Below are positions 3,557 to 27,576 of a DNA stretch of 29,264 nt, piece by piece. Every line of letters starts with the position of its first letter. Within the stretch, counting starts at the first letter, position 1. The DNA is from a virus. Where the stretch lies: the IMG/VR virus record IMGVR_UViG_3300010354_000424, positions 1-29,264 of that record. One strand, given 5' to 3'. A model generated the notes under the pieces. The model did not search any database. It had not been told where the DNA came from and saw nothing but the letters and a program-made list of their open reading frames with translations. The position numbers and the translations under genes are program-made.

Positions 3557-4153
3557 TTAATTTTTCCACATAACTTTTAAATTTTTATCAAAAATCATTA
3601 AATATCTGTGTTTACGACTACGATCTCTCCATTCACCATCTTTACCTTTGATAGAACCTCTTGAATGCTTAGTACCATCAGCATAGTAAAAGTCTTTCTT
3701 AGGATCAGTTAGACCGTAGTAAGTAAAATTACAAGCTCTGTATATAGTTCCAACGTGGTGATTAGCATCAGCGTAACTAAGAATAGCACGAACGCGGGCA
3801 TCTTTTCTAAACCTCTTAATACATTTACTAACAAACCATGAAGTGATATTATATTCTTCTCTTTGCACTTCTGGATCTATACAAAGACGAGAAAGTTCAA
3901 ATAAACCTTCTTGATCATCTCTTTGAAGACCAAAGGCACCTACGGCAATTTCTGGAACTGGGAGACCAGTAAAAACGCAAGCACCAAGACACCCGCCAAT
4001 TCTAATGGGGCATTCCCAGTCAGTATATCTGAAGAGTCCATAATTATATCCAGATTTAAAATCTTTAGATTCGTCTTTTAAATAGTGATGAGTATATAAT
4101 AAATCTTTAATTTCATTTTTACTCACTCTTTCTATATAGAATTCAGACTTCAT
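3557..4153 (-). CDS. Mom-like DNA adenine hypermodification protein (GNAT-related)
   Basis: This 198-residue protein resembles phage Mu Mom, a GNAT-fold enzyme that converts adenine in DNA to a carbamoylmethyl form and so protects phage DNA from restriction. The matching blocks are ELSRLCIDPE (86-95), the most characteristic SYADANHHVGTIYRACNF (126-143), and SRKHRYLMIF near the C-terminus (179-188). All occur in the Mom order and at roughly the family length. No transmembrane segment is seen. It lies 35 bases downstream of a 2OG-Fe(II) oxygenase on the same strand and ends in a clear terminator, so the two may be co-transcribed. The assignment rests on motif memory. A generic GNAT acetyltransferase is the alternative, and the actual modified base is unknown. 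Confidence 0.7.
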   Translation of the reverse strand: MKSEFYIERVSKNEIKDLLYTHHYLKDESKDFKSGYNYGLFRYTDWECPIRIGGCLGACVFTGLPVPEIAVGAFGLQRDDQEGLFELSRLCIDPEVQREEYNITSWFVSKCIKRFRKDARVRAILSYADANHHVGTIYRACNFTYYGLTDPKKDFYYADGTKHSRGSIKGKDGEWRDRSRKHRYLMIFDKNLKVMWKN

Positions 4154-14587: not shown

Positions 14588-17476
14588 TTAATAGAGAGCG
14601 GCTGATAGAACTTGCTTAAACATATTTCTACTATCACTATTTAACATGCTGGAATCATAATCTATTCTTGGTCTCGAAGTCTGTCCAGCACTTCCCAAAG
14701 CAGTATTTGCTGCTTGCTGTGGTGGAGGAAGTATTATAGTTGATGGGGATTTTCTATCATAACTAGCAGATTGACTAATAGCACTCGGAGACACTTTGGG
14801 TTTAGTTGAAGATACTGCTGCTTGACTTGGTTTAGCTGGTTGTTGAGATGCTTGAGGGGCTGGTTTAACAGGAACACTAACAAAAGGAGCATTTATATTT
14901 GCATCATTACTATCCTTTGGACCTAAAATTTTCCCCTTTTTATCTCCTAAAATTTCAGCAAACTTACTAAAATCTGTAGTTTCAGATTCTGATGATGCTG
15001 GTGCTGGTGCTGAAGGTGGAGATGAAGAAGGTTCTTGACTTTGTGCTACATTTGCTGATGGAGAACCTTTTGGTACACTCATATTTCCAAATGATGGAAC
15101 TTGCGCTGGTCCAGGATTTTTCTTACCATATGCAATTGCACCAGGACCAACATACCACCCAAACAAATGTCCATGTCTAGTTCTATAACCAAATCCACCG
15201 GGATACTTATTAGCAGCAGAAGGGACGGCAAAATCAGTTCTACCACCAACCCATTCAGCTGCATTTTTTTGTAATGATGGATTTGTAATATTTCTAGCCG
15301 CTTGATCAACATATTTAGTTGCTGTTGCAATTCCCTTTCCCTTATGTGCTGCTACAGCAGCTATTGCAGTTTCTCTATCTTTAATAGCTCTCCATAATTT
15401 TATGGGGACCCCATCACCAGTAACTGGTTGAAACTGTCCTGGAGATAAAATTGCATCCTTGATGGTCTTAACACTAAAAACACCAGATGCAACTCTATTA
15501 TAGACTGCTTGAGCGACATCAGCTTCTCCCTGATCACTGGAACCTTCTAGTGATGCAACAGCTGCTAAAGTCCAAAAATCAGCATCTCCACCCTGTATTA
15601 CTTCACCTGGACCAGGAGGACCTTCTGTACCATCTCCACCATCTCCACCACCTCCAGAGGGTGCTCCAGGTCGAGACTTCATATTCTGCTGATACTTTTT
15701 GCTAGCAGAAACTTCAGCATAAATTCTGCCTCTAGCCCATTTTCTAAATGAGTATGATAGTGAACTTGTATCTATATCATCATCAACATCTATTAATCCA
15801 TTTTCATATGCCTTGAACATCTCATAGGACATATTATCGGCAGCACCATCAGTTGTGGATTTTAATATAGTTTCGCCCATAGCGATGGCCATACCGATTC
15901 TCAACAAATCTCCAATAAATGTTGACTTTTTAAAACCATCACTTAGTTTGAGTAGATATTTTGATTGATCGTCACCAAAGAAAGATTTTGAATTTTTAAT
16001 TGCTTTTTGAGAAATTGCAAAAGGTCTTGATCTATTCAAAACTGCCTTTTTGCTTTCCTTAGATTCAAATGTTCTTTTTTGAACTCCAGTTTCTCTAGTT
16101 ATACCAGAAGGAGATGATCCTGATGTTGGTCTTGTAAGATTCTGTACTTTACCACCCTTTGCTTTTTGTTCTACTTTTGAAGCTTCCTTTTCTGCTTGAC
16201 TAACCCTTCCAGTTAGATTTTTATACATTGATTTTGCAATCCAATCACCAACTGCTGCTCCTATAAATCCAGATGCTCCAATAATAAATGGAGCAGCTAA
16301 TGCACCAATACCACCTGTAGATAAGGTAAGAGCAAGGGCACCGCCTTTTCCAAGAGCACCACCAATAGCAGCACCTATACTAGATCCTATTGCACCAACA
16401 ACTGCACGATCTAAAGGTTCTCCCATAGCGAGATCTATAGCAATTCCCAGTATTGCCCCAATAACAGGAACTCTTTTAAATATTTTACTAAACGCCTTCA
16501 ATCTACCAACAAGTTTTTTAGAACCTTGGCTTGCAGCAAGATCTGCAGCCTTTTTAGACCCAGCAGATACTGCTTTCGATGCAGTTTGTGCTACTTTCTT
16601 TGCTGCTTCGGTTCCAGTTTGTCCAAGTATTTTTTTAGCAATTGATTTTAATGGTCCACCAACTAAGTTGAATATAAATCCACCAGCTTTCTTTAAGAGA
16701 CCAGTCAATAAAGATCCAGCCTTGAATAATAATTTTCCAATTAATTTTATTGGACCACCAAATATTTTTGCTGATAACTTAGCTAGAAATTTAATTTGTT
16801 TAGGAAAATTAGTAGCTAATGATATTATTCCAAATTTAAGAACTTTCCACAAATTATCAACACCAGAAGCAATTCCTTTGATAACATCAATTATTTGTGG
16901 AATATAATTAAATGCCCAGTTCGCTAAACTACCAAGAAAAACATTTAACAAATAATTTGTAATAAAATCAAATATATTACCAGAAGGTTTTGGTGCTGCC
17001 TTTCCAATTTTTTTAGTTTTAGATGGTTTCTTTTCTAATTCATCTTCTTTAGATTTTCTTTTTTGTCGTTCTAACTCTTTTTTCTTTCTAGCATACTCAT
17101 TCTTATCAAATAAAGCACTCTTATCCATTAATGATTTTATGGTGACTAGAGTACTTTTTATTATCAATAATTCATCAAGTAATGGATTATCGGATTCTTT
17201 TTTAACAAGTGCAGATGACTCAGATTTAACTAATGCTCCACCTTTAGAGTCTGTTCCAGAAGAGTTTAAATTTGGTAATTGAGTTTTCTTTGCTAAAAAT
17301 TTTTCAGTAGTTACTTTGACTATTTTTCCTTTTATTTCTTTCTCTGCTTTATCTTTTACCATTCCCTTTACTATGTTTCCGCCGCCACCTGCTGCTGTCC
17401 TTGCACCACCGCTTATAGCTCCTCTAGCAGCAGAGGTTGCTAACATTCTACCAGCAGTAGCGAGAAGTGGTAACAT
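14588..17476 (-). CDS. Large tail protein with a SleB-like cell-wall hydrolase domain
   Basis: A 962-residue protein. Residues about 634-790 match the SleB/Hydrolase_2 family of cell-wall hydrolases: FWTLAAVASLEGSSDQGEAD with candidate catalytic E644, AVYNRVASGVFSVKTIKDAI (657-676), PGQFQPV (679-685), and a Trp/Tyr-rich end HGHLFGWYVG. The N-terminal half has many amphipathic or hydrophobic helices, including YLLNVFLGSLANWAFNYI (175-192), and a long Gly/Ala-rich hydrophobic part (335-415). LLNV.LGSLANW and FSKFAEILGDKKG (836-848) recur in the M23-domain protein just upstream, so the two are paralogues with different enzyme inserts. The end is Pro/Ser/Gln-rich and disordered-looking. It probably degrades peptidoglycan during DNA entry and may span part of the tail. 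Spacing to the previous gene is 1 base. Confidence 0.78.
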   Translation of the reverse strand: MLPLLATAGRMLATSAARGAISGGARTAAGGGGNIVKGMVKDKAEKEIKGKIVKVTTEKFLAKKTQLPNLNSSGTDSKGGALVKSESSALVKKESDNPLLDELLIIKSTLVTIKSLMDKSALFDKNEYARKKKELERQKRKSKEDELEKKPSKTKKIGKAAPKPSGNIFDFITNYLLNVFLGSLANWAFNYIPQIIDVIKGIASGVDNLWKVLKFGIISLATNFPKQIKFLAKLSAKIFGGPIKLIGKLLFKAGSLLTGLLKKAGGFIFNLVGGPLKSIAKKILGQTGTEAAKKVAQTASKAVSAGSKKAADLAASQGSKKLVGRLKAFSKIFKRVPVIGAILGIAIDLAMGEPLDRAVVGAIGSSIGAAIGGALGKGGALALTLSTGGIGALAAPFIIGASGFIGAAVGDWIAKSMYKNLTGRVSQAEKEASKVEQKAKGGKVQNLTRPTSGSSPSGITRETGVQKRTFESKESKKAVLNRSRPFAISQKAIKNSKSFFGDDQSKYLLKLSDGFKKSTFIGDLLRIGMAIAMGETILKSTTDGAADNMSYEMFKAYENGLIDVDDDIDTSSLSYSFRKWARGRIYAEVSASKKYQQNMKSRPGAPSGGGGDGGDGTEGPPGPGEVIQGGDADFWTLAAVASLEGSSDQGEADVAQAVYNRVASGVFSVKTIKDAILSPGQFQPVTGDGVPIKLWRAIKDRETAIAAVAAHKGKGIATATKYVDQAARNITNPSLQKNAAEWVGGRTDFAVPSAANKYPGGFGYRTRHGHLFGWYVGPGAIAYGKKNPGPAQVPSFGNMSVPKGSPSANVAQSQEPSSSPPSAPAPASSESETTDFSKFAEILGDKKGKILGPKDSNDANINAPFVSVPVKPAPQASQQPAKPSQAAVSSTKPKVSPSAISQSASYDRKSPSTIILPPPQQAANTALGSAGQTSRPRIDYDSSMLNSDSRNMFKQVLSAALY

Positions 17477-17477
17477 A

Positions 17478-19787
17478 TCAATACTCCAGTATGTTTAGAA
17501 GAGATTTTACAGCGGTATAATGACTAAATTCTGCCATGTTTATCGAAGAGAAATTAACTGGAGGAGTTCCAGTATTACCAGTCATAGAACCACTAGTCAC
17601 TGGTTTAGCAGACAGATTTGCTGCTGCTAAATTAAGAATCTGAGGAGTTCCAGCAGTTGGGGGAGGAACATTAGATTTTGGGGGAGTTGGTGCAATCTGA
17701 GCTGCTGATGGGGGCATCATTCCAGCTTTCTCATAGGCAGCTTTTTGCTCACCAGACATGATAATATCACCTTTCTTATCACCTAAGATTTCAACAAATT
17801 TACTAAAATCAACAGCCTCTTCTGCGGGTTCTTGCGATCCACCACCTCCGCCACCTCCACCACCACCGCCACCAGCGCCACCAGATTCTAATTGACCTGC
17901 AGAATAATTACCGCCCAAACTAGCCCTAATCCAATTAGTGTGAACTGATTTACTACCATCAACGTGAACGTGTATATCTCTAGTGCCAGTATTTCCTTGA
18001 GTTCCTATAATAGTAGAAGGACTAACTGTTGCACCTTTTTTTGTTTTTATCTTATCCAAATGCAATAATCTTATTAATTTTTCCCCTTTATTATTAACAA
18101 TCTCTACCATATTTCCTGCACCGTCAGCATATCCAGCAAAATCAACTTTTCCAGATACACCAGAAACAACACTCAATCCTCTTCCATGAGAAGGAACTGC
18201 AGCGGGATTAATACCAGTTCTAACGACAGCATAATCTGCTGGAATTGCTCCTCGGAAAGCAGAATAAGATCTATGGTGCGATGGAACACTGGAAAAATCA
18301 GAACTTGATGATAATTTTGTATTTCTTGATGGACTAATTCCCCAAAGATCTATTCCTCCACCACCTGCAGCTGTTCTTATCTTTATATCATTAACTGAAG
18401 CAAATGTTGAGGCATTATTACCACCATACTTTTTATTCATAGATTCCAAAAATGGAATTCCTATTGCTTGAGCTGCACCAGGAACAAGGACAAATTCATT
18501 TTTCTTTAATGCAGTTAATTGAGTATCAGGTCCAAGTCCACTAATATCCAATCCTGTCGATCCACTAACAATTCCACCAGTTTCAGCAATTTTATTGTTC
18601 ATTTTTGGAACTCCCCCACCAGAAGTTTTTTGAACAACATTATTGATTTTTTGCGAATTATCAACGTTTAGATTTTGAATGCTCTTAAGAATTTTAATAT
18701 CACTACCAACTATATTTCCACCCTGATTCTTTACTTGAATGTTTGGTTGTGATTTTTGTGGTTCAGCAGTTTCTGTGCCTGTTATATTTGGTGCTTTTAT
18801 ATCAGGAATATCGGGAATATTCGGTACTTGTGGAGCATCAATAGGAGTAGATCCAGGAATGATACTCATCGCTTTATTAATAATTCCAATAAATCCACTA
18901 ATTGCCGAGTTAATTAAATCAATAAAACTTCTTACTGGTTGTACTACATTATTATCAATGAATTGAAGAATATTATTAAAAAATCCAAAAATACCATCCA
19001 ATAAACTCTGTATTGGTTGTAAAAGCATTTTTGGATTTTGTATTACAGAGAACAACCAATTAGCCAAACTACCAAGTAGAACATTCAACAGGAAATTTTT
19101 AATTGTATCAAAAATACTTACAAACGGTTTCGTTGCTTGTTCAACCATTTTAGTAGCAAAAGATGGTTTTTGCTCCATCTTTTTTTCTCTTGATGATCTA
19201 CCTGCTTTTTCAGATTCTCTAGAGGAAAGAGATGCTAATTTTTGTTTTTCTTGCAATTGCTTTTTCATTGAATCGGCAATTGTAATTACAAGTTCTTTTA
19301 TTTCCTTAACTACAGATAATATTTCATCATCTTTTTTATTCTGTAGTTCTACATTTTTTTGATCGCCATTTTCATCTTGAATATTATCAGGAAGTTTTTG
19401 AATAGCACCAGGAACATTAGCATGAGGTAAAAGATTTACCTTTTTGGGTGCCTGTGTAGCATCAGATCCAGAATCCTTATCAAAAAATTTATTTGCTTTT
19501 ATTTTTTTAGTACTTACTTTAAATCTTCCAGATCTTTTCTTTCTAACTCTTAATAATTCTTCTCTAAGTAAAGTAACATCATCAGTTTCCAGACCTTTGC
19601 CTTTTGAAGATAAAAGATCATTTTCATTTAGCTTTCCAATTAAAAGCGTTTTATAGTCGCCATAATCTAAATCGAAGATATCTTGCAATCCGAGAAGTTC
19701 CAAAACCCTCGGATCTATATTTTCTTCCGCAAGATCTTCTACATTAGTAGATTCAGTTTTTGGTGTATTTGGAGAATCTACCGCCAT
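17478..19787 (-). CDS. Large tail protein with an M23-like peptidase domain (possible tape measure)
   Basis: A 769-residue protein. Residues about 525-625 resemble LytM/M23 zinc endopeptidases: VPSHGRGLSVVSGVSGKV (532-549), LLHLDKIKTKKGATV (574-588), GTQGNTGTRDIHVHVDG (595-611). H606/H608 give the HxH motif, but the first HxxxD ligand set is replaced by HGRG, so activity is uncertain. The N-terminus is charged and coiled-coil-like (150-200); 230-310 is a hydrophobic helical stretch containing FLLNVLLGSLANW, shared with the SleB-domain neighbour, as is FSKFVEILGDKKG (661-673). A poly-Gly tract spans 639-650. It lies 3 bases after the frame downstream of gp26; the gene after a tail-assembly chaperone pair is often the tape measure, but that role is inference. 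Confidence 0.72.
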   Translation of the reverse strand: MAVDSPNTPKTESTNVEDLAEENIDPRVLELLGLQDIFDLDYGDYKTLLIGKLNENDLLSSKGKGLETDDVTLLREELLRVRKKRSGRFKVSTKKIKANKFFDKDSGSDATQAPKKVNLLPHANVPGAIQKLPDNIQDENGDQKNVELQNKKDDEILSVVKEIKELVITIADSMKKQLQEKQKLASLSSRESEKAGRSSREKKMEQKPSFATKMVEQATKPFVSIFDTIKNFLLNVLLGSLANWLFSVIQNPKMLLQPIQSLLDGIFGFFNNILQFIDNNVVQPVRSFIDLINSAISGFIGIINKAMSIIPGSTPIDAPQVPNIPDIPDIKAPNITGTETAEPQKSQPNIQVKNQGGNIVGSDIKILKSIQNLNVDNSQKINNVVQKTSGGGVPKMNNKIAETGGIVSGSTGLDISGLGPDTQLTALKKNEFVLVPGAAQAIGIPFLESMNKKYGGNNASTFASVNDIKIRTAAGGGGIDLWGISPSRNTKLSSSSDFSSVPSHHRSYSAFRGAIPADYAVVRTGINPAAVPSHGRGLSVVSGVSGKVDFAGYADGAGNMVEIVNNKGEKLIRLLHLDKIKTKKGATVSPSTIIGTQGNTGTRDIHVHVDGSKSVHTNWIRASLGGNYSAGQLESGGAGGGGGGGGGGGGSQEPAEEAVDFSKFVEILGDKKGDIIMSGEQKAAYEKAGMMPPSAAQIAPTPPKSNVPPPTAGTPQILNLAAANLSAKPVTSGSMTGNTGTPPVNFSSINMAEFSHYTAVKSLLNILEY

Positions 19788-19790
19788 CTT

Positions 19791-19961
19791 TTATCTCTGT
19801 TGTTGCTTTAATTTCTCATCGTCCAAATGTTGTTGTAATAATGAGACATAAACATCCCTTTCCCAGGGCATCATATTTTCAATCTCAGTCAATGAATATT
19901 TATGATACTGAATCAAAGCAAAATTTAACTTATAGTAATTTTCAAGATCCATATGGACCAT
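19791..19961 (-). CDS. Short frame downstream of gp26, likely a -1 frameshift extension
   Basis: A 56-codon frame starting MVHMDLENYYKLNFALIQYH and ending LQQHLDDEKLKQQQR. It begins 2 bases after the gp26 stop, in the -1 frame relative to gp26, and ends 3 bases before the M23-domain gene. The pattern F.L.....SLTEIENMMPWERDVYV is that of second-frame tail-assembly chaperones (lambda gpT-like): short, helical, W-E-R-D-Y-containing, ending in charged helix. The slippery heptamer at 19970-19976 would fuse it to gp26. Independent initiation is also possible: the second ATG (19950-19952) has AGGA 9 bases upstream. It might be the positional counterpart of T4 gp51, though I see no clear similarity. 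Confidence 0.7.
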   Translation of the reverse strand: MVHMDLENYYKLNFALIQYHKYSLTEIENMMPWERDVYVSLLQQHLDDEKLKQQQR

Positions 19962-19963
19962 TC

Positions 19964-20683
19964 CTAACCGAAAAAAGATGCTAATCCCTCCAGAAGAACT
20001 TCACTTTCAACACCAGTATTAGGATTTTTAATCTTAACTTTATGACTAAGTTTGGGCATCGTTTCAAAGAACTTTTCAATTTGCTTAAATTGACTTGTAT
20101 TCATTTGATCTAGGAACTCAAATAATTCTTTCTTGGTCACATCACTAGAAACCCAAACTTCTTCTTCATTATAAATTTTATCAATGCATGATGTGATAAG
20201 ATCAAAAGATTGATCCATACCAGTATTAGATGAAAAATCAAAATTAGATTTTATAAACTCATCTAGTGAAGGATATTTCATCTCCATAATCAAAGAAGAA
20301 TCCAATTGTATTTTATTATTATGGTCTGGATTCTTATGTACTTGTATATCGTCTACATTTATTGTGGTGGAAACAACACTTTGTTGATCATCTGGACATA
20401 TCAAATTAACTTCAATATCTTCTCCAACAGATTTACCTCTTATATTTAAGAATAAGTATTCAATATCAAAAGTTGGTAAAGTTTCCACTTTAACATTTTT
20501 TGTTTGAATGCAACTTTTAATTACTGTTTTAATTGCGTTGGTTATTTCTTTTATATCTTCTGTTTCTAGTGCTAGAACTAATAGTTTTTCTTCTCTAACT
20601 AAAAATGGTCTATATCTAATCTTTTGTCCACTTGAAGGCAACTCAAGTTCATACGATGGTGTAGAAATTGTAGGTAACGGCAT
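19964..20683 (-). CDS. 26: Baseplate hub assembly protein gp26-like (tail-assembly chaperone type)
   Basis: This 239-residue protein starts MPLPTISTPSYELELPSSGQ. The features RYRPFLVREEKLLVLALE, a CPDD motif (KSVGEDIEVNLICPDDQQ) and FLDQMNTSQFKQIEKFFETM mark the T4 gp26 family (T4 baseplate protein, PF12322). T4 gp26 acts in assembling the baseplate hub rather than as a main structural part. The gene ends GLASFFG, and the final codons TCT TTT TTC form the slippery heptamer T TTT TTC. A CTAAATA element (20716-20722) lies 33 bases before the ATG. It follows the gp54-like gene after 39 bases. The family call is firm; a frameshifted 297-residue product is a prediction. Confidence 0.85.
   Translation of the reverse strand: MPLPTISTPSYELELPSSGQKIRYRPFLVREEKLLVLALETEDIKEITNAIKTVIKSCIQTKNVKVETLPTFDIEYLFLNIRGKSVGEDIEVNLICPDDQQSVVSTTINVDDIQVHKNPDHNNKIQLDSSLIMEMKYPSLDEFIKSNFDFSSNTGMDQSFDLITSCIDKIYNEEEVWVSSDVTKKELFEFLDQMNTSQFKQIEKFFETMPKLSHKVKIKNPNTGVESEVLLEGLASFFG
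19970..19976 (-). promoter_or_regulatory. Predicted -1 programmed ribosomal frameshift site (T TTT TTC)
   Basis: On the minus strand the gp26 frame reads TCT TTT TTC GGT TAG, which contains X XXY YYZ as T TTT TTC. Slipping back one base gives CGG TTA GGA ATG and continues without a stop through the downstream frame to 19791, a 297-residue fusion. GGAGG lies 10 bases upstream of the heptamer, like the dnaX stimulator. A small hairpin (GGTCC/GGATC, 5 pairs including one G-U, at 19959-19946) begins 10 bases downstream. Confidence 0.65.
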
Positions 20684-26659: not shown

Positions 26660-26992
26660 TCAGTTATTAATAATATTATTTTTCATTGATTGAATTAATT
26701 TTACCATATTTCCAAATAATACACTAATATCAACATTAGAATCTAAACCCATTAGTTTTGTAGATTCAGATATTTTACTTACCATTTCTTTAGCTTGCTT
26801 ATCGTCAGATAAAGACAAACGAGTATATAAAACTCTTTGTTTTTCTAAAAGTTTTTCCATCAATTCAATGTGACGTATCTTCTCTTCTTTATTAAAAGAT
26901 GGAAATTTAAATACAGTATTATATAACTGCTCTTGCAATTCTGATATTTCGACCATTTCAGATCTTACTATCTCGGAATCAAAAAAACTCAT
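26660..26992 (-). CDS. DUF1825-like protein
   Basis: A 110-residue helical protein starting MSFFDSEIVRSEMVEISELQ. The beginning FFDSEIV, the middle FNKEEKIRHIELMEKLLEKQ and the end region LFGNMVKLIQSMKNNI match the plan of DUF1825, a small family found in nearly all cyanobacteria and in cyanophages. The function is unknown. The start overlaps the gp59 stop by 4 bases and has AGGAG before it. The location between gp59 and the methyltransferase suggests middle expression. Confidence 0.75.
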   Translation of the reverse strand: MSFFDSEIVRSEMVEISELQEQLYNTVFKFPSFNKEEKIRHIELMEKLLEKQRVLYTRLSLSDDKQAKEMVSKISESTKLMGLDSNVDISVLFGNMVKLIQSMKNNIINN

Positions 26993-27576
26993 AAAAAACG
27001 CTCCTTTAATATTTTTTTGTAATAAAATATATCAATATTTAGAAATGGCTTATATTTCTTTATTTTATTTCTCACAATATCCCAAACTGGATCTTTCAGT
27101 TTCTTATCAAAATTATTCCCGAACAGGAAAATCTTATCATAAATCACTAGGGTTTCTAGTGAAATTTTCCCGCTCAGGAACTTTTTTAAAACGGGAGGAT
27201 GCCCCTTAGAGCAATCAAAAGCTTCCTCCAATTTATCGGTAGAAAATAAAATATCAGTCTCTTCCTTAAAAACATAAGATAGAGACTGAATTTTTTTTGT
27301 CCAATTTTTGTATATAGTTTCCCCTTCTCTAATAATACTACCAATCCACAATGACTGCGGATCATCACATGAAACAAAATTAGAGATAAAGAAATTTTCT
27401 ACTTCTTTATCTGTTTTATTTCTAGATAGTTTTTCAAACCAATACCGATCTTTTCTCTTATAAAAAGATTGAAGACTTGCTCTGCTTTTACCACAGTATT
27501 TGTGATAATCATAGTTATCTTTACTAAAATGATTTTTTAGTGCTAGATATGTTTTATAGCATTCAAATGGACTCAT
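26989..27576 (-). CDS. 59: Replicative helicase loader gp59
   Basis: This 195-residue protein starts MSPFECYKTYLALKNHFSKD. SRASLQSFYKRKDRYWFEKL, then FISNFVSCDDPQSLWIG, FLSGKISLETLVIYDKI and DPVWDIVRNKIKKYKPFLNI are the hallmark blocks of T4 gp59, which binds forks and loads the gp41 helicase onto gp32-coated DNA. The length is close to T4 gp59 (217). It lies two genes upstream of gp32's neighbours, in the usual replication block. No good ribosome site is seen upstream (ACTTTTTT before the ATG). Confidence 0.92.
   Translation of the reverse strand: MSPFECYKTYLALKNHFSKDNYDYHKYCGKSRASLQSFYKRKDRYWFEKLSRNKTDKEVENFFISNFVSCDDPQSLWIGSIIREGETIYKNWTKKIQSLSYVFKEETDILFSTDKLEEAFDCSKGHPPVLKKFLSGKISLETLVIYDKIFLFGNNFDKKLKDPVWDIVRNKIKKYKPFLNIDIFYYKKILKERFL

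Follow-up and report, generated by a model that had tools for sequence, protein, structure and literature searches.

Introduction

In phage lambda, the tail assembly chaperones G and GT are absent from the virion and bind the tape measure protein and the tail tube, and in 2016 the G-T frameshift was called conserved "except T4" (PMC5009743). PMC3004832 counts T4 gp26 and gp51 among the hub assembly chaperones and states that gp51 is required yet absent from the particle. The tail assembly chaperones of T4-like phages were identified by Vladimirov, Gautam and Davidson (Virology 2022, 566:9-15), a study that we know through the papers citing it. PMC10885494, in the passage that cites it, credits it with T4-like phages that dispense with frameshifting and have one short gene and one long, fused gene, and the citing passage of PMC12846349 credits it with poly-T slip sites in T4-like chaperone genes.

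The window analyzed here is the whole 29,264-nucleotide stretch of IMG/VR virus record IMGVR_UViG_3300010354_000424, which appears to come from a T4-like phage of marine cyanobacteria. Its initial annotation proposed that a programmed -1 frameshift fuses gp26 to the following frame to give a short and long pair of the G/GT type, and treated this as apparently not yet described for T4-like phages. The conserved signal and open -1 frame reported below support the proposal. The claim of novelty fell, since later papers, in the parts that bear on it, credit the 2022 study; the principle of chaperone frameshifting in T4-like phages should be taken as already known, and the window as a well-supported further case.

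Results

The gp26 gene ends with the codons TCT TTT TTC GGT TAG, and across the junction the minus strand reads CTGGAGGGATTAGCATC TTTTTTC GGT TAG GA ATG GTC CAT ATG (Table 1). The first ATG of the gp51 frame, at 19961, lies 2 nt past the gp26 stop, and this frame ends 3 nt before the 769-aa ORF that starts at 19787. The initial annotation had located the heptamer, stop, GGAGG and hairpin, with all distances between them, correctly to the base; the 56-codon frame was present with the spacing it gave on both sides, and its fusion of 297 residues and about 34 kDa agrees with the computed product. Through phrog_634 the second frame is assigned to gp51, "baseplate hub assembly catalyst". It matches the phrog_150 profile as well, at positions 240-280, an early hint of fused members in this family. 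The window has a single gp26 gene followed by a -1 frame, unlike T4, where 26 and 51 are separate, divergent genes.

Table 1. Features of the gp26-gp51 junction and its surroundings, in window coordinates
Feature	Position	Strand	Evidence
gp26 gene, 239 aa, putative short form of the tail assembly chaperone	19964..20683	-	PF12322 E 3e-74, phrog_150 E 4e-77
Slippery heptamer T TTT TTC (TTTTTTC)	19970..19976	-	read from sequence; one codon before gp26 stop
gp26 stop TAG	19964-19966	-	read from sequence
SD-like GGAGG, possible stimulator	19987..19991	-	exactly 10 nt upstream of heptamer
Hairpin GGTCC-ATAT-GGATC, possible stimulator	19946..19959	-	10 nt downstream of heptamer
gp51 frame, 56 codons from first ATG, putative C-terminal domain of the long form	19791..19961	-	-1 frame; phrog_634 E 5e-27
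Predicted frameshift product gp26-51, 297 aa, 34.6 kDa	19791..20683	-	computed; colinear with in-frame T4 gp51
769-aa tail protein with M23 peptidase domain, directly downstream	17478..19787	-	PF01551 E 2e-9

Slippery-type heptamers are common in the window, with roughly 80 in-frame X XXY YYZ matches among its 9,161 codon pairs. A heptamer by itself therefore carries little weight, and the evidence lies in its conservation. Scanning viral contigs yielded 80 close relatives, and in all 79 whose junction was readable by script TTTTTTCG is invariant while the codons around it vary freely. The set was widened by further contig scans and 15 isolate loci to 200 usable loci, with gp26 clustered at 80% identity (54 clusters) or 90% identity (99 clusters); an alignment of gp26 from all types was too diverse for locus scanning, and scans with single proteins were used instead. 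At 80% identity, 52/54 clusters carry T TTT TTN at the junction, with TTC as the last codon in 33, TTT in 11, TTA in 6 and TTG in 2. The second residue of the slip pair is accordingly F or L, and the codon ahead of the heptamer is always NNT, encoding S, D, N, A or T. Elsewhere in gp26, just 6/153 F[FL] pairs take the T TTT TTN form (Fisher p ~2e-39 against 52/54, with shared ancestry ignored). The heptamer is kept across lineages down to ~20-30% gp26 identity, and also occurs in the isolates phiWae14, CC2, phiN3 and S-SSM7 (four further). Conservation of the FF residues in place of the heptamer had been named as a pattern that would speak against frameshifting; the opposite was seen, as the bases are kept while the residues vary.

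The frame that a -1 slip would enter is also maintained. Among the 79 close relatives it stays open for 53-63 codons past the stop, compared with closure of the +1 frame within 7-21, and over all 54 clusters the -1 ORF runs for 53-67 codons. Wherever the gp51 HMM domain was found in frameshift-type loci it lay in the -1 frame, and no frameshift-type relative has the second gene in another frame or separated from gp26. Most lineages, including the window, have an in-frame ATG near the start of gp51, from which some gp51 could be made alone. One close relative (L038) has no ATG in its -1 frame, and 41/200 loci, representing 23/99 clusters at 90% identity, lack ATG, GTG and TTG in that frame as far as 12 codons beyond the stop. 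Because a start codon is absent in these 23 clusters, the slip is the likeliest route to gp51 there.

RNA folding at the start of the -1 frame was compared with synonymous shuffles, giving a mean z of -2.4 over the 54 clusters, 57% of which reached p<=0.05. When the test was moved 54 and 96 nt further, the mean z was -0.4 and -0.7. In the window's clade, 151/170 hairpin stem cells pair, versus 40-101 when the stem is slid; the window hairpin taken alone was not significant against synonymous shuffles (p 0.13). The SD-like element shows a modest bias over synonymous shuffles across clusters (p 0.08 in the window), and both it and the hairpin are absent from some lineages.

Five phages (VAP7, K445, Maynard, 2050H1 and phiDP10.3) have a related -1 ORF, with a weak domain match for K445, but no canonical heptamer. 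Their junctions read NTT TT(C/T); a weaker single slip is possible in these phages, as is coupling in those that have TAATG. The same NTT TT(C/T) sequence is a possible non-canonical slip site in five loci from Ackermannviridae and the related Vibrio phage K445 (L220, L221, L222, L089 and L092). Separately, the gp51-like -1 domain following gp26 is unannotated in two Ackermannviridae, Salmonella phage Maynard and Serratia phage 2050H1, and in Aeromonas phage CC2 (L220, L221 and L224).

T4 and 44RR have a divergent gene pair, 26 and 51, and no frameshift; in further loci (L208-L217) a gp26 homologue likewise lies on the strand opposite gp51. In T4 gp51 a complete PF12322 domain at residues 1-201 (E 4e-52) precedes the gp51 domain in the same frame, and both domains were also found with profiles built without T4 sequences. 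The join between these domains falls where the -1 slip would place it, so that T4 gp51 is colinear with the predicted fusion. T4 gp26 is thus the counterpart of the short form, and the predicted fusion has its counterpart in T4 gp51. The initial annotation described gp26 and gp51 as separate in T4-like phages; T4 gp51 is a gp26-like domain joined to a gp51 domain rather than the equivalent of cyanophage gp51. In T4, 44RR and the T4-type contigs examined, the frameshift is replaced by a pair of divergent genes, 26 for the short form and 51 for the long one. In an unrooted gp26 tree with long branches, a branch sets off each of the two T4 gene types, and likewise the frameshift type, from the rest. 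The C terminus of a T4-type gp51 model (mean pLDDT 91) forms a helical domain, and the model gave no confident PDB match.

The gp26 structure model (pLDDT 87) gave a Foldseek probability above 0.3 among the 50 PDB matches listed solely for the HK97 tail assembly chaperone 2ob9 (0.80 and 0.47; E ~1). With ~63 aligned columns at this E value, the modeled likeness to HK97 gp13 is suggestive, and a gp26 profile search against PDB sequences returned nothing useful. Downstream of the gp51 frame lie the 769-aa tail protein and then a 962-aa one. Neither showed clear homology to a known tape measure protein, and the 769-aa protein did not match T4 gp29; it is possibly the tape measure protein. In Cr30 the tape measure annotation belongs to the gene that follows an 82-aa ORF. 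The two large window proteins (17478-19787 and 14588-17476, minus strand) carry cell-wall hydrolase domains, M23 peptidase and Hydrolase_2 respectively.

Elsewhere in the window, a homologue of gene 59, the DNA helicase loader (26989-27576, minus strand), has T TTT TTA just ahead of its stop and overlaps the next gene (26660-26992, minus strand) by ATGA in the -1 frame. We set this aside as a second frameshift: ordinary coupling or overlap is probably the better explanation, since the ATG is preceded by a well-placed AAAGGAG and the two frames are related differently in the P-SSM2 overlap. The gene at 3557-4153 (minus strand), adjoining a tail fibre gene, has a product similar to Mom-like DNA modification proteins (phrog_1384, E 7e-31).

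Discussion

The conserved signal, the open -1 frame, the lineages whose gp51 lacks a start and the colinearity with T4 gp51 lead us to conclude, with a probability of roughly 0.9, that one gene gives two forms of the tail assembly chaperone through a -1 slip on T TTT TTC. Most ribosomes would halt at TAG to release gp26, and a minority would slip and continue to gp26-51, aided by the downstream hairpin and, in some lineages, by the SD-like sequence. By analogy with lambda G/GT, the additional C-terminal helical domain of gp26-51 would be the chaperone's link to tail tube or baseplate, and gp26 and gp26-51 would act as a tail chaperone pair. We infer the slippage itself, its rate and the partners of each form.

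One alternative makes gp51 a small gene of its own, reached by termination-reinitiation once gp26 has been translated, with the T run kept only for its amino acids. Database records do annotate gp51 as its own gene, an ATG lies near the gp26 stop in many lineages, and TAATG or TGATG occurs in 11/54 clusters. We consider this improbable given the clusters with no reachable start codon, the fusion of the T4 domain to a gp26-like domain, and a T run whose bases stay fixed although the residues change. It is less probable still that RNA polymerase, rather than the ribosome, slips on the T run and produces a mixed mRNA population. The run is 7-8 T long in 11/54 clusters, which would suit this mechanism, but in 41/54 it is exactly 6 T, and 6 T is short for polymerase slippage. 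Moreover, the commonest form breaks the run with TTC, although Phe is more often encoded by TTT in the rest of gp26, and a selected hairpin just 3' of the site fits ribosomal frameshifting. The abundance of slippery-type heptamers in the window might suggest a chance match in an AT-rich genome, a reading that persistence of the heptamer over such distant gp26 sequences contradicts and that we regard as negligible.

A more elaborate version of the frameshift reading is tentative, and we put it at somewhat below even odds: the frameshift would be a tuned, multi-part signal (heptamer, 3' hairpin and optional SD-like element) and, for a sizeable share of T4-like phages, the sole way to make gp51, with Ackermannviridae including Maynard keeping the -1 domain behind a non-canonical (A/G)TT TTC slip site. 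The statistics on the hairpin, the lineages whose gp51 lacks a start and the variant junction of Ackermannviridae are possible additions to the 2022 report.

These findings support, by independent comparison, the view that T4-like cyanophages use frameshifting to make both a short and a long tail chaperone, while T4, the textbook model, has two genes instead. They also bear on annotation: the "gp51, baseplate hub assembly catalyst" annotated in hundreds of cyanophage records probably represents the C-terminal portion of a fusion, and some records lack gp51 because it has no start codon. Gene callers should merge both frames.

Among known systems, the T4-like gp26/gp51 chaperones of Vladimirov et al. 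2022, as the citing papers present them, belong to the same gene family as those of the window. The likeness to lambda G/GT lies in the short and long pair and not in any demonstrated sequence homology, and the lambda heptamer is different. The chaperone locus of Vandenendeviridae and Andersonviridae, described for phage Adele (PMC12846349), shares a conserved T-rich motif and an open -1 frame, likewise argued from alignment, but its motif is GTTTTT and the phage families are others. T4 genes 26 and 51 encode the same two domains as the window and preserve their order in gp51, but do so from two divergent genes.
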